Of a stretch of 28,710 nucleotides of DNA, positions 1 to 27,927 are shown in pieces. The notes below the pieces were generated by a model. The model did no database searches and was not told the origin of the DNA. It worked only from the letters and a program-made list of their open reading frames with translations. Source of the stretch: a virus. A program made the translations under genes and the position numbers. The stretch's first letter is position 1. Every line of letters begins with the position of its first letter. Location of the stretch: positions 1-28,710 of IMG/VR virus record IMGVR_UViG_3300033149_003620; one strand, written 5' to 3'.

Positions 1-305
1 TAAACCTCATCTTTCCATTGGGAATGAGCTTCCCATGTTGTGCGTGCGTGCTTGTCGTTGAACCATAGGGGTTTCACTCGCTCATCCACTTGAAGTTTCC
101 ACGGCAATTCAGGATACAGGTATGGGAAAGGTTTTTCATTGTCTGGTATGACTTCCACTCTGGCGAAGGACATCTCGGACGGGTCAGTCGTTCTATCAAG
201 AGAACGCAGTTTGAAGTGTTCTATCGACTCGTCGTGGCTATCAATCCCTGCCTTCCAATAGACCTTCCCCGACTTCATCACAATACAGCTAAATGCCTGA
301 CACAT
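1..305 (-). CDS. Hypothetical phage protein, cut by left edge
   Basis: An open frame begins with ATG at 305 and runs off the left edge, giving at least 101 codons without a stop. An AGGAGG lies six bases before the ATG, so the start is well supported. The N-terminus begins MCQAFSCIV, followed by GKVYWKAGIDSHDE and later ARVEVIPDN and VDERVKPLW. The mix of short strands and charged loops resembles a conserved phage hypothetical family whose N-terminus reads MC-AFS followed by GKVYWK; that likeness is from memory and gives no function. It is the last visible gene of the leftward operon, ten bases after the 58-codon gene. The C-terminus is missing, so full length and any downstream domain are unknown. 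Confidence 0.75.
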   Translation of the reverse strand, partial: MCQAFSCIVMKSGKVYWKAGIDSHDESIEHFKLRSLDRTTDPSEMSFARVEVIPDNEKPFPYLYPELPWKLQVDERVKPLWFNDKHARTTWEAHSQWKDEV

Positions 306-3432: not shown

Positions 3433-3942
3433 TTACCTCCCGTCCGGGAATATCGTTTTGCCATCCCAGGGGCAATTCGGACACAACTCGGAGTGCAACT
3501 TCAAAAGCGCTTTTTCGTTTTGTCTAAGGTAGGCATCCCTTGCTTTAAGACATGCATCCTCCGCCCTGGCGCATGCATATTCCGCCTTGAAGTAGGCAGA
3601 ACACGCCTTAAGGTGGGCGTGCCACGCTTTATCATGGGCTTTTCTCTTCTTGGGGTAGGCATCCTTCGCTTTTTCAAAAGAGTTTATCTCCTTCTGGAGG
3701 GCGCCATACGCTTTATCTAAGGCATTTGCTGCTTTATCATAGGCAGCAAATGCCTTAAGATATGCGTCCAATCCTTTCTTGGGTACTTTGTCATAAGGTA
3801 TCATCTTAAAAAGACGAAGCCTCAGCCCAACCTCTTCTGGTGGCTTGTATTCCTTAATGAAATCCACCCTCTCGTTGTAGTCATAGACATACTCCATCAA
3901 GATGTCGTGGTGGCAGTGGAACGCTAACCCCGATTTCCTCAT
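3433..3942 (-). CDS. Paralog of 132-aa protein with heptad-repeat insert
   Basis: Residues 1-34 (MRKSGLAFHC..., YNERVDFIKEYKP) and 153-166 (LCPNCPWDGKTIFP) match the N-terminal half of the 132-aa protein at 1951-2349, both in protein and in the matching DNA. Between the two homologous pieces lies a long insert. Its main part, residues 59-142, is twelve back-to-back seven-residue units with consensus xAYxKAx, for example DAYLKAF, AAYDKAA, NALDKAY, HAHLKAC, DACLKAR. This predicts a long alanine-rich helix or coiled coil. The Cys-rich C-terminal tail of its paralog is absent. Start ATG overlaps the HTH gene's stop (ATGA). Function unknown; the design suggests a rigid spacer or oligomerization rod placed into a small metal-binding domain. 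Confidence 0.75.
   Translation of the reverse strand: MRKSGLAFHCHHDILMEYVYDYNERVDFIKEYKPPEEVGLRLRLFKMIPYDKVPKKGLDAYLKAFAAYDKAANALDKAYGALQKEINSFEKAKDAYPKKRKAHDKAWHAHLKACSAYFKAEYACARAEDACLKARDAYLRQNEKALLKLHSELCPNCPWDGKTIFPDGR
3517..3768 (-). repeat. Twelve degenerate 21-bp tandem units (heptads)
   Basis: The 84 residues encoded here divide without gaps into twelve heptads of the form xAYxKAx. At DNA level the 21-bp units are diverged but still recognisable on the plus strand as recurring GC-TTT or GCCTT followed by A-G and GCAT. Every unit keeps frame and most keep Ala-2 and Lys-5, which implies selection on the protein rather than simple slippage. Confidence 0.75.
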
Positions 3943-4175
3943 TTCTTCCCCCTTAAGAAAGCCACTGCCTTCCTCATGAACTTGTCCAGAAGTCCGCCAT
4001 CAGGTTCAAGATCCCTCTCTCTCCTGATGATGGCTCGTATCCTCTGCGGAGTTAAGCCAAACCTCTTTACCAGTTCCGAGGTTGTCCAGCCAACATCAGA
4101 GAGTTCTTTAATCAAGATATTGCGTTGCCTCTTTCTGTAGGCTTCCTGTTGCTTTATTGACCGTTCACTGTTCAT
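3939..4175 (-). CDS. Small helix-turn-helix protein, 78 aa
   Basis: A basic N-terminal helix (SIKQQEAYRKRQRN) is followed by VGWTTSELVKRFGLTPQRIRAIIRRER at about residues 28-53, a good helix-turn-helix with a sigma-70 region 4 or MarR/LuxR-like recognition helix. The C-terminus is basic. It likely binds DNA as a phage regulator of the early operon or of late genes. ATG overlaps the upstream stop by ATGA, and its stop overlaps the start of the heptad-repeat paralog. It is the only clear transcription-factor-type protein in the window, so it is a candidate for the repeats at 4873-4983, but that link is a guess. Confidence 0.75.
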   Translation of the reverse strand: MNSERSIKQQEAYRKRQRNILIKELSDVGWTTSELVKRFGLTPQRIRAIIRRERDLEPDGGLLDKFMRKAVAFLRGKK

Positions 4176-4631: not shown

Positions 4632-4670
4632 TTAAAAAACAAAAACCCGCAGACTAGATTTAGCCTGCGG
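4632..4670 (-). terminator. Rho-independent terminator or attenuator (leftward)
   Basis: Read leftward, CCGCAG and CTGCGG arms (4647-4652, 4665-4670) enclose a second 3-bp CTA/TAG stem and a short loop, and are followed by GGGTTTTTGTTTTTTAA. It sits between the promoter at 4749-4777 and the first gene of the left operon, so it must be leaky, regulated or anti-terminated if that promoter feeds the operon. Confidence 0.8.
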
Positions 4671-4742
4671 ATTATGTTAAACTGTATCTACTACCGTCAG
4701 GATAAGGATATTATTTTAAGCTACTCTAGCTAAATCCTTGTC
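4632..4742 (-). ncRNA. Candidate structured leader RNA or small RNA, ~105 nt
   Basis: The predicted transcript starts about 4742 from the promoter at 4749-4777 and ends in the terminator at 4632-4670. It contains an upstream long hairpin (4704-4739) with arms AAGGAT/ATCCTT and AGCTA/TAGCT around a 3-nt loop. No open frame of note fits. It could be an attenuator leader, an anti-termination signal of the put type, or a free small RNA. No known RNA family was recognised. Confidence 0.4.
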
Positions 4743-4748
4743 CATCCG

Positions 4749-4777
4749 ATAGTAAACCTTATGTTAAACTTTGTCAA
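4749..4777 (-). promoter_or_regulatory. Sigma-70-type promoter, leftward
   Basis: On the minus strand a perfect -35 TTGACA (4772-4777) is followed after exactly 17 bases by TACTAT (4749-4754, four of six consensus). A second TTTGACAAA copy lies 16 bases upstream (centred near 4790), giving a direct repeat that might be an operator or a relic promoter. Predicted start is near 4742. It would drive the leader RNA and the early left operon. Confidence 0.75.
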
Positions 4778-4872
4778 ATCCCCTTTTGTCAAAGAAACGC
4801 AAATGCCTTTACCATCCTCTAACACTCTATTATTATCTCTCGTTTTCTAACAGTTTCTCGTTTTTTCTGCAA

Positions 4873-4941: not shown

Positions 4942-4955
4942 AGGGTGATACATAG

Positions 4956-4983
4956 TGTCGGCACTTGTTGATATGTGCCGACA
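4956..4983. repeat. Perfect 9-bp inverted repeat
   Basis: TGTCGGCAC (4956-4964) and GTGCCGACA (4975-4983) are exact reverse complements around a 10-base AT-rich spacer. No T-run follows on either strand, so it is not a typical terminator. It could be an operator or a cruciform. It stands between the iteron-like repeats and the late-operon terminators. Confidence 0.65.
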
Positions 4984-4991
4984 ATTTGGCA

Positions 4992-16371: not shown

Positions 16372-16401
16372 AAAAAGAGGGCTATTCCTAGCCCCCTCTT
16401 T
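16372..16401 (-). terminator. Strong hairpin/terminator inside the head operon
   Basis: Leftward, a 13-bp stem (arms at 16372-16384 and 16389-16401, with two G-T pairs) closes a GGAA tetraloop of the GNRA kind, and its distal arm ends in TTTTT. It stands between the 1133-aa gene and the scaffold, only 39 bases before the scaffold ATG. It could lower or set the ratio between early and late head genes, or protect the scaffold-capsid mRNA after processing. Confidence 0.7.
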
Positions 16402-21363: not shown

Positions 21364-21391
21364 TTGACAAAGTCTCAAAAAGGTGTAAACT
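21364..21391 (+). promoter_or_regulatory. Sigma-70-type promoter for lipoprotein gene
   Basis: Perfect TTGACA at 21364-21369, 16-base spacer, then TAAACT at 21386-21391 (four of six). Predicted start near 21398 gives a leader of about 12 bases before the ATG at 21410. It points against the head operon. Confidence 0.65.
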
Positions 21392-21409: not shown

Positions 21410-21922
21410 ATGATGAAGAGAATTGGGGCTCTTCTTTCAATATCAGTTTTATCATTACTGCTTTTAGCTTCGGCTTGTGGCCAGTCAGTATCTAATGTTG
21501 AGAAACGAGCAAACGAATATAACCAGCAATTACAGCGCTATCAAGAGTATCAACAATACTTGCAACAAAAGAATCAACAGAGTTCCCAACAGCAACCCAC
21601 CCCACGAGCCTACCGACCATTACCTCCTAGTAATCCCTATTCTCAACCCCAAACCAATGAGGCGCAGTTCAGACAATGGCAATTACAACAGCAGCAACAA
21701 CAATTGCAGTATCAGCAGAAACAACAAATGAGCCAGACCTATACCGCTATGGCCGAAATGTATGAAGATATGGCTAATGCTGCCGAAGCTCAAGGTAGTC
21801 GAATTGAACAGATGTATCACTTTTCTATTCAGGGCAGATTAGCTGCCGAGCCATACTACCAACAAGCCCAAGAGTATAGGCGTCAAGCCTCAAATTACCG
21901 CATGAAAGCTCTCGGTTATTAA
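21410..21922 (+). CDS. Phage-encoded Gln-rich lipoprotein, 170 aa
   Basis: A signal peptide (MMKRIGALLSISVLSLLLL) ends in the lipobox LASAC, so C23 is probably lipid-modified and the protein anchored to the membrane of the host. The rest is Gln-rich (runs of 5-7 Gln at about 90-100), with QEYQQYLQQKNQQ and later helical YTAMAEMYEDMANAAEAQG, and Tyr/Ala-rich C-terminus. No enzymatic motif. It is the only gene of its orientation between two leftward structural genes, has its own promoter, and ends one base before the convergent 156-aa gene. These traits fit a 'moron' cargo gene expressed from a lysogen or early, possibly blocking superinfection. Function is inferred. Composition is more A-rich than neighbours. 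Confidence 0.75.
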   Translation: MMKRIGALLSISVLSLLLLASACGQSVSNVEKRANEYNQQLQRYQEYQQYLQQKNQQSSQQQPTPRAYRPLPPSNPYSQPQTNEAQFRQWQLQQQQQQLQYQQKQQMSQTYTAMAEMYEDMANAAEAQGSRIEQMYHFSIQGRLAAEPYYQQAQEYRRQASNYRMKALGY

Positions 21923-25699: not shown

Positions 25700-26036
25700 A
25701 TTCAACCTTTATAACCGGCGGTAATTCTGTTTTCTTCTCCTGTGCCAATTGCCCCTGCCATTTGAGGTATAACTCAATGGCCTTCACCTTACCCTGCTTT
25801 GACTCCTCAATAAGAGCCTGAGTAATTGCATACATCTCATTACCGCCAAGTATCCTGATGGCGTTTTGAGCAAGCGCTTTCACATCCGGGTCTTTCTTCC
25901 AGTTGGACAGAGTTACGGTTGTTACCCCCAGCTTCTCTGCCAGGTCAGCTTCCGTCTTTGGGTGCCTGTGCTCTGGAGGCATCCCCAACCAGATGGCGAA
26001 TTGCTCTCTTTCAGATTCCCTTCGTTTATTGCTCAT
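25626..26036 (-). CDS. terS: Terminase small subunit, 136 aa
   Basis: A DNA-recognition helix-turn-helix is visible at about residues 28-50 (TEADLAEKLGVTTVTLSNWKKD), followed by a helical oligomerization part (VKALAQNAIRILGGNEM, ITQALIEESKQGKVKAIELYLKWQGQ) typical of phage terminase small subunits that bind the packaging site. The C-terminus is charged and flexible. It directly precedes and overlaps the large subunit gene. The ATG overlaps the upstream 46-aa gene's stop (TAATG). Confidence 0.85.
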   Translation of the reverse strand: MSNKRRESEREQFAIWLGMPPEHRHPKTEADLAEKLGVTTVTLSNWKKDPDVKALAQNAIRILGGNEMYAITQALIEESKQGKVKAIELYLKWQGQLAQEKKTELPPVIKVEYATKDRRDDDKDRGSSQANGVYQE

Positions 26037-26176
26037 TACTTCTTCTTAGTTTTGACCTCTCCAGCGTGGGACTTCCCCTTCTTGTCGTAGCAGACACGCA
26101 TATATTTCATCTTGCCTACTTTTACGGTTCTAACTCGCCCACCTTCCTTTACACACTTAATGAAATCTGCTGGCAT
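26036..26176 (-). CDS. Small basic protein before terminase, 46 aa
   Basis: The ORF (MPADFIKCVKEGGRVRTVKV, then YMRVCYDKKGKSHAGEVKTK) is short, Lys-rich, with a beta-hairpin-like pattern. GAGGAG lies close before its ATG, and its stop overlaps the terminase small subunit's start. I recall similar small proteins of the form MPADFxxCVxxGGxVRT upstream of terminases in several phages, but their role is unknown. It may bind DNA or RNA near the packaging genes. Confidence 0.7.
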   Translation of the reverse strand: MPADFIKCVKEGGRVRTVKVGKMKYMRVCYDKKGKSHAGEVKTKKK

Positions 26177-26220: not shown

Positions 26221-26442
26221 ATGAAGTATCTGCTTCTGGCAGTATTACTCGCAGTCATAGCAGGTATAACAGGCTGTAGCGGGCAACAAGACGGTATGGG
26301 GGAAAGGCCTGAAGGAAACAGGAGCACATATCCAGTCTTTACCTATCCCCTTCACCCATCGGAGTATAATTCAGGGTTCAGGTATGCGGTACCGGGTGCT
26401 GTCTATGTGACAAACCCGCCTCAGTATGAGGTCACCGAATAA
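26221..26442 (+). CDS. Small phage-encoded lipoprotein, 73 aa
   Basis: A short signal peptide (MKYLLLAVLLAVIAG) with the perfect lipobox ITGC predicts lipidation at C19. The mature part, about 55 residues, is Gly/Pro/Tyr-rich (VFTYPLHPSEYNSGFRYAVPG, VTNPPQYEVTE) with no enzymatic motif, probably an extended anchored peptide. It lies alone, rightward, between the leftward terminase operon (45 bases away) and the next leftward terminator. Its promoter abuts the ATG, implying a leaderless message. It parallels the lipoprotein at 21410, so both may be lysogenic-conversion or superinfection-exclusion proteins; that is inference. Confidence 0.75.
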   Translation: MKYLLLAVLLAVIAGITGCSGQQDGMGERPEGNRSTYPVFTYPLHPSEYNSGFRYAVPGAVYVTNPPQYEVTE

Positions 26443-26487: not shown

Positions 26488-26512
26488 AAAAACCCGCCTT
26501 CTAACAGGCGGG
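26488..26512 (-). terminator. Rho-independent terminator (leftward)
   Basis: Leftward, CCCGCCT and AGGCGGG (26506-26512, 26493-26499) pair perfectly around a six-base loop and are followed by TTTTT. It closes the small operon at 26562-27220 and shields the terminase operon and the rightward lipoprotein gene. Confidence 0.82.
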
Positions 26513-26561
26513 ATTAAAAGCAACAGTAACAATAACCACAGCGGACACGGACAGGGACACA

Positions 26562-27007: not shown

Positions 27008-27220
27008 CTATTTTTTTGAGTTCTTCTTGAGAGAAGGGAACTTCCTGTATACCGCAGACCTTACCGCTTTCTTCTCCTGCGGTGTCCCAAAAGCCGATAC
27101 CCTCGCTAAAGCATTCCTCGCATGAGATTTGTCCGTTATCGGATACTTCCTCTTCTTCCCGTCTACCGCAAATGCACTGTCAGGCAACCTCTTCCTCTGC
27201 TTGTAACTTAACTTCGCCAT
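27008..27220 (-). CDS. Small DUF6582-like protein, 70 aa
   Basis: The sequence (MAKLSYKQRKRLPDSAFAVD, KYPITDKSHARNALARVSAF, GTPQEKKAVRSAVYRKFP) matches a small phage and bacterial domain of unknown function: LPDSAFA, then KYPIxDxxHARNALARV, then a KxxVRxAVxRKxP tail. The label DUF6582 is from memory. In some phages this unit is attached to a prohead protease or polyvalent protein; here it stands alone. GGTGGAG precedes the ATG; an earlier in-frame GTG at 27301 lies inside the leader RNA and is unlikely. It leads a three-gene leftward operon. Confidence 0.7.
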   Translation of the reverse strand: MAKLSYKQRKRLPDSAFAVDGKKRKYPITDKSHARNALARVSAFGTPQEKKAVRSAVYRKFPSLKKNSKK

Positions 27221-27232
27221 CTCTCCACCAAT

Positions 27233-27258
27233 AAAAAAACCCGCCATCTCTAGCGGGT
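27233..27258 (-). terminator. Rho-independent terminator or attenuator (leftward)
   Basis: Leftward, CCCGC and GCGGG (27253-27257, 27240-27244) enclose an 8-base loop, followed by seven T residues. It ends only 12 bases before the first gene's ATG (27220), so it must act as an attenuator or leaky terminator if the promoter at 27344 feeds that gene. Confidence 0.72.
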
Positions 27259-27337
27259 GTATCTCCCTGCGGTGAGTCGTTCTGAGGATTACCCATCTCA
27301 CCGCATCAAGGGCTATTCATTTAGTGCGCCCCTCCAC
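27233..27337 (-). ncRNA. Candidate structured leader RNA or small RNA, ~105 nt
   Basis: Predicted from the extended -10 promoter to the terminator. It contains a perfect 8-bp stem (GCGGTGAG 27269-27276 with CTCACCGC 27297-27304) extended by 4 bp with a 4-base asymmetric bulge. The 20-base loop could form a smaller helix. No open frame of note is present. It may sense a ligand, bind a protein, modify the polymerase as put-type RNA, or be a free RNA. No known family was recognised. Confidence 0.4.
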
Positions 27338-27343
27338 AATTAC

Positions 27344-27352
27344 ATTATACCA
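27344..27352 (-). promoter_or_regulatory. Extended -10 promoter, leftward
   Basis: On the minus strand TGGTATAAT is a perfect TGnTATAAT extended -10 element. No good -35 stands 17 bases upstream; TTGACA is present but only seven bases before. Expected start is near 27337. Confidence 0.6.
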
Positions 27353-27524
27353 TTATTGTCAAGCCCCCTTCCCATGCTTTTATTTCTTTTCTTTCTCCAA
27401 GAGTATTTTCTTTCCTTTGAGGGTTTTTCACCCCATGTTGCACGGTTAAATCATATAGTCTATAGGCGGTTTCGGTACCAGGAAACCTTCGTATCTGTGC
27501 CTGTTATACCTACGGAAGTTTAAT

Positions 27525-27737: not shown

Positions 27738-27927
27738 TCTTACCGTCACTAAAACAGAGCGTTAGTTATTATATATATTATATATATATTATTATATATA
27801 CTCTTACCGTAATAAGAGAAGTTATCTTATAAGAGAAGTTATCTTAATGGTATCGTTATAGAGAACTAATATATTACTCTTTACTTAAATCCTTATTTTA
27901 GAGCCGGCAGACTGGTTATTATCCACC
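27738..27927. other. AT-rich repeat region, replication-origin candidate
   Basis: A ~35-base run of alternating A/T (27766-27800) is bracketed by direct 9-mers TCTTACCGT at 27738-27746 and 27802-27810. Next come a 17-bp tandem repeat (27812-27845) and a single DnaA-box-like TTATCCACC at 27919-27927 (eight of nine to the common box). The region has no genes and lies between divergent operons. An origin is plausible, but a promoter-dense control region is equally so. The rest of 27360-27737 holds only short hairpins, such as AACTGGC/GCCAGTT at 27588-27616. Confidence 0.4.
27812..27845. repeat. Perfect 17-bp tandem duplicate
   Basis: ATAAGAGAAGTTATCTT occurs twice in direct succession (27812-27828 and 27829-27845). 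Each copy is itself a weak inverted repeat (ATAAGA with TCTTAT), which fits a dimeric protein's operator sites. Confidence 0.75.

Follow-up and report, generated by a model that had tools for sequence, protein, structure and literature searches.

Lambdoid phages routinely carry terminators ahead of their early genes, and either N, acting at nut sites, or put RNA allows polymerase to pass them (PMC9378689). Lambda late genes are under the control of Q, whose loading relies on a DNA element together with promoter-proximal pausing (PMC7171158). In Gifsy-1, one promoter gives rise to IsrK, a terminated small RNA, and to a read-through mRNA (PMC4825925). The window analyzed here is a viral record of 28,710 bases, a linear fragment without end repeats, in which nearly all genes are carried on the minus strand. 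The capsid protein shares only approximately 27% identity with cyanophage relatives. In this study, we describe the sequence anatomy of a promoter, leader, and terminator unit at the head of a small operon, a non-random pairing of promoter and terminator at this and one other unit, and a DNA element common to the two promoters. The arrangement is read most economically as anti-termination at operon heads.

Anatomy of the unit and the operon downstream

Consensus-grade promoters were defined as an exact TGNTATAAT or TTGACA-16..18-TANNNT, and terminators were scored using a d'Aubenton-Carafa-type formula. The promoter and terminator rules assumed sigma-70/E. coli-like signals, which may not be those of the host. 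The features are listed in Table 1. Starting from 27370 on the minus strand, the order is AAGGGGGCTTGACAA, TGGTATAAT, the leader, the 6-bp helix, the 9-bp stem, the terminator, GGTGGAGAG, and the ATG at 27220.

Table 1. Features of the two promoter-terminator units and the adjoining operon
Feature	Position	Strand	Remark
Element AAGGGGNNTTGACAA, copy 1, just upstream of the -10	27356..27370	-	exact match
Extended -10 promoter TGGTATAAT	27344..27352	-	sole minus-strand TGNTATAAT of the window
Predicted leader RNA, ~105 nt	27233..27337	-	putative start 7 nt past the -10; end at the terminator T-run
5' helix, 6 bp, 14-nt loop	27308..27333	-	MFE and centroid folds
9-bp stem TGCGGTGAG/CTCACCGCA, 20-nt loop	27268..27305	-	6/2000 shuffles
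Intrinsic terminator, 8-bp hairpin ACCCGCUAGAGAUGGCGGGU and seven T	27233..27258	-	dG -12.8
Operon gene 1, DUF6582-like / phrog_16160, 70 aa	27008..27220	-	phrog E 1.4e-16
Strong terminator closing the small operon, ahead of the terminase block	26488..26513	-	
Element AAGGGGNNTTGACAA, copy 2; the -35 hexamer of that unit lies inside it	4771..4785	-	exact match
Promoter of the other unit, TTGACA-17-TACTAT	4749..4777	-	
Terminator of the other unit	4643..4674	-	

The initial annotation had placed an extended -10 promoter here, and the match at 27352-27344 is perfect. Exact TGNTATAAT has three matches in the window, and this is the only one on the minus strand. No -35 was found at 16-18 nt spacing. 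A TTGACA lies 7 nt upstream of the -10, too close to serve as a -35. The leader of about 105 nt that had been proposed agrees with the predicted span from 27337 to 27233. The MFE z of the whole leader unit is -2.7, and the leader body alone is marginal by folding energy (23/500 shuffles). The 8+4-bp stem described previously holds in its main part, but the main stem actually has 9 bp (27305-27297 paired with 27276-27268), and the 4-bp inner helix is one among several near-equal suboptimal folds. The 9-bp stem is significant: of 2000 dinucleotide-shuffled leaders, 6 formed a perfect stem this long or longer.

The terminator at 27258-27233 scores high, and its position just ahead of the small operon is as annotated. 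The end of its T-run and the ATG at 27220 are 12 nt apart. This gap leaves no room for a promoter; hence, the downstream gene or operon should depend on read-through. The first gene of the operon has the ribosome site GGTGGAGAG at 27229-27221. The Pfam match of its DUF6582-like product falls under the Pfam cut-off; 520 relatives were found, so the family is real. A GTG-extended N-terminus (27301) running through the terminator was rejected, because the relatives start at the ATG. Two more small genes follow, and then the strong terminator and the terminase genes.

No 9-of-12 promoter is present on the minus strand from this terminator (from 26493) to the terminase genes. A strong intrinsic terminator of the minus strand also lies at 16375-16398, in a gap within the late gene block. 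The missing promoter before the terminase genes, together with this second terminator, fits a terminator-resistant polymerase.

Several other features of the window were recorded. A 46-aa ORF with a ribosome site (26036-26176, MPADFIKCVKEGG...) runs into the beginning of the terminase small-subunit gene through a TAATG overlap and has no family match. The plus-strand genes 21410-21922 and 26221-26442, opposite to the late genes, encode lipoprotein-type signal sequences and are possible morons; a TTGACA promoter at 21364 precedes one of the two. At 27812-27845, in the divergent region and next to an AT tract (27765-27800), the near-palindromic 17-bp sequence ATAAGAGAAGTTATCTT is present in two exact tandem copies, an operator- or origin-like arrangement. 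Gene 3433-3942, whose product is a repetitive protein rich in K, A, and Y, contains at 3718-3757 an inverted repeat whose 15 bp pair perfectly around a 10-nt loop.

A second unit and a common promoter element

In plan and length, the units at 4785-4644 and 27352-27233 are the same. This likeness had been pointed out in the initial annotation and is borne out by a distance of 102-104 nt from promoter to terminator in both. Only two consensus-grade promoters occur on the minus strand in 28.7 kb, ending at 27344 and 4749, and each has its strong terminator at this distance downstream. The plus strand has five consensus-grade promoters, none with such a terminator. Other loci totaling 1.66 Mb (both strands) held 34 such promoters and 40 such terminators with no pair at 60-170 nt; these loci are often GC-rich and come from other hosts, and are therefore an imperfect control for the pairing. 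Judged from the terminator density of the other loci, the chance of both promoters coinciding with terminators is approximately 1e-5. The match between the two units is not coincidence, and this arrangement weighs more heavily against chance than the folding and terminator scores do.

The leader RNAs themselves differ, as had been stated: they have no sequence in common beyond that of shuffles. Unrestricted local similarity of the two regions (125/300) and pairing between the two leaders (60/200) were at chance level. The common CCCGC stems noted previously are present but constitute weak evidence, since their 10-mer AAAAACCCGC (plus strand) recurs in a third terminator, at 26488-26497.

The element AAGGGGNNTTGACAA, absent from the initial annotation, is a new observation. 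Besides its copies at the two promoters, the window contains no further copy, even with 1 or 2 mismatches, and it was not found in the other loci. When only the 66 nt up to and including the -10 were compared, 1 of 500 shuffles was as good; of the two-region similarity tests, only this promoter-restricted one was significant, and AAGGGGNNTTGACAA was a post hoc finding. The TTGACA of the element is a normal -35 (17-nt spacer) in the 4785 unit. In the 27370 unit, where a -35 role is impossible, simple promoter function does not account for it.

Around the 4785-4644 unit, the minus-strand 12-mer AGTTTAACATAA has its only two copies of the window, one in the promoter spacer (4759-4770) and one just before the terminator (4672-4683). 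In the gap preceding the unit lies a 14-nt inverted repeat (4951-4988; CATAGTGTCGGCAC/GTGCCGACAATTTG) that forms 9 perfect pairs. A small HTH protein encoded behind the unit (3939-4175) weakly matches phrog_532, a family of late transcriptional activators (E 2.9e-5), and counts as no more than a candidate regulator. A candidate cis anti-terminator in this unit, GAUUUAGC/GCUAAAUC, appeared promising as a duplex (12/500) and was rejected after the whole-leader fold gave no gain (449/500).

Proposed control of the downstream operon

The best reading of the sequence is that the unit belongs to the general kind of lambda PR'/N/Q/put and would be opened by a putative anti-termination factor or by leaky read-through. 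RNA polymerase would start at the extended -10 promoter, make the structured leader, and mostly halt at the terminator before gene 1. The small operon would be expressed upon read-through, and perhaps also the terminase and structural genes past 26513-26488. We consider it an even call that the unit is a terminator-gated operon head that would most likely be opened by a phage factor loading onto polymerase at the promoter or close to it. Such a factor would make the polymerase terminator-resistant, and the same factor would act on the 4785-4644 unit. By analogy, the two units suggest that both operons may be switched on by a polymerase that ignores the stop signal, much like in phage lambda. 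Processive anti-termination from 27337 would account for the lack of a 9-of-12 promoter before the terminase block and for the terminator inside it; a late promoter that is weak or off consensus would do so too.

Phage-wide control by anti-termination had been raised as a possibility together with a search for a trans-acting anti-terminator. The two-unit plan behind this idea is real and beyond chance; no factor, no nut, put, or Q-binding site, and no conditional structure was found in this fragment, and phage-wide control stays putative. Among the window proteins scanned, which come from a fragment, no N, Q, or put homolog or other anti-termination protein was recognized. The Q families PF06530, PF03589, and PF06323 were likewise absent among the proteins scanned from this fragment, part of them via Pfam.

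DNA searches of phages and plasmids and an exact leader pattern in viral contigs, with a coverage that may exclude records very near the window, returned no relatives of the leader. The terminase, portal, and RecT peptide patterns gave no relatives in viral contigs, the portal gave none in 50 whole viral records, and the capsid alignment was too divergent to serve as a search query. A leader alignment was therefore not possible. A single viral-contig match to the pattern of the other unit was a chance match, in a contig without matching genes. Co-travelling of the leader with the DUF6582 gene was rejected: of 120 relatives, 4 had a terminator-like site within 150 nt, where the background rate is 2.2%. 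In contig L094, whose DUF6582 gene is followed by a distant portal relative, there is no such site.

A possible, if rather unlikely, explanation is leaky constitutive attenuation, in which the terminator would set a low, fixed read-through for a gene needed sparingly, free of any factor. This explanation is simple, looks identical to the factor model by sequence, and agrees with the failure to find a factor, a common RNA site, or a switchable fold. However, the agreement of both units in length and plan, together with their common promoter element, suggests shared control, and the terminator scores strong. It is unlikely that the units represent a new type of phage-wide anti-termination, in which a factor unlike N, Q, or put would load at AAGGGGNNTTGACAA beside each promoter and the leader RNAs would be alike only in length and plan.

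The terminated RNA of ~105 nt may itself be a regulatory small RNA, as in Gifsy-1 IsrK (PMC4825925), with the read-through mRNA secondary. A predicted stable, structured RNA with its own terminator would suit this dual function, which we nevertheless regard as quite unlikely. Against the remainder of the window, the leader reaches at most 11 nt of complementarity, which shuffles reach as well, and its pairing with the other leader is that expected by chance. The leader has no relatives and no Rfam match.

A cis-acting switch, in which a ligand, a protein, or a ribosome would refold the leader and block the terminator, is very unlikely. The leader does contain GGAGGGG, which resembles a ribosome site, followed by a short ORF for a putative leader peptide, MNSP (27320-27306, behind GGAGG), whose stop codon abuts the 9-bp stem. 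However, this 4-codon ORF has no regulatory codons, pairing of the leader with the 5' half of the terminator gave an energy gain not above that of shuffles (333/500), and no cis anti-terminator above chance was found in either leader by folding against shuffles. None of the Rfam covariance models, including those of known riboswitches and cis-regulatory RNAs, matched the leader above its gathering score. Since no terminator-capturing fold above chance and no known riboswitch were found and the leader is not kept before the gene elsewhere, polymerase-directed control or leakiness is favored over a ligand- or peptide-sensing leader.

A mere co-occurrence of promoter-like and terminator-like sequences in a non-coding region, without joint function, would be compatible with plain consensus matches, a missing -35, and the lack of relatives to show conservation, and is highly improbable given the stem, pairing, and AAGGGGNNTTGACAA statistics and a coincidence that would have to occur twice in one genome.

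Comparison with known systems

In plan, the predicted unit resembles the terminator-gated general kind. Like the lambdoid PR'/tR'/Q arrangement, it combines, as read from sequence, a strong promoter, a short leader ending at an intrinsic terminator before an operon, and predicted read-through expression. Q is recruited through a promoter DNA element (PMC7171158), and the common element found here, AAGGGGNNTTGACAA, has at most a putative role of this kind. Unlike the lambdoid system, no Q family protein was recognized here, and two such units occur in one phage. The lambda PR' leader, at 194 nt, is longer than the leader of ~105 nt. As with HK022 put (PMC9378689), an RNA with two stem-loops, here a predicted one, heads an early operon, and each phage has two such units. 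Both put RNAs of HK022 are approximately 70 nt long and have a common sequence, whereas the leaders described here share none and are directly followed by a terminator. The likeness to lambda N/nut lies in terminators before early genes that are overcome by a phage factor, here putative; in contrast, no RNA site is common to both leaders and no N-like protein was recognized. Gifsy-1 IsrK is similar in that a single promoter yields both a short RNA that ends at a terminator and an mRNA made by read-through, as is predicted here. It differs in its genes and in the absence of detected complementarity here, and the Rfam score of the leader against isrK (RF01394; 10.8 bits, cut-off 50) is at chance level.

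If the gate is real, AAGGGGNNTTGACAA would be a short DNA handle for finding the missing factor. Such control would then operate in a phage without recognizable N, Q, or put, and terminator-gated operon control, best known from lambdoid phages, would extend to one that is uncultured and whose capsid relatives are no more than distant.
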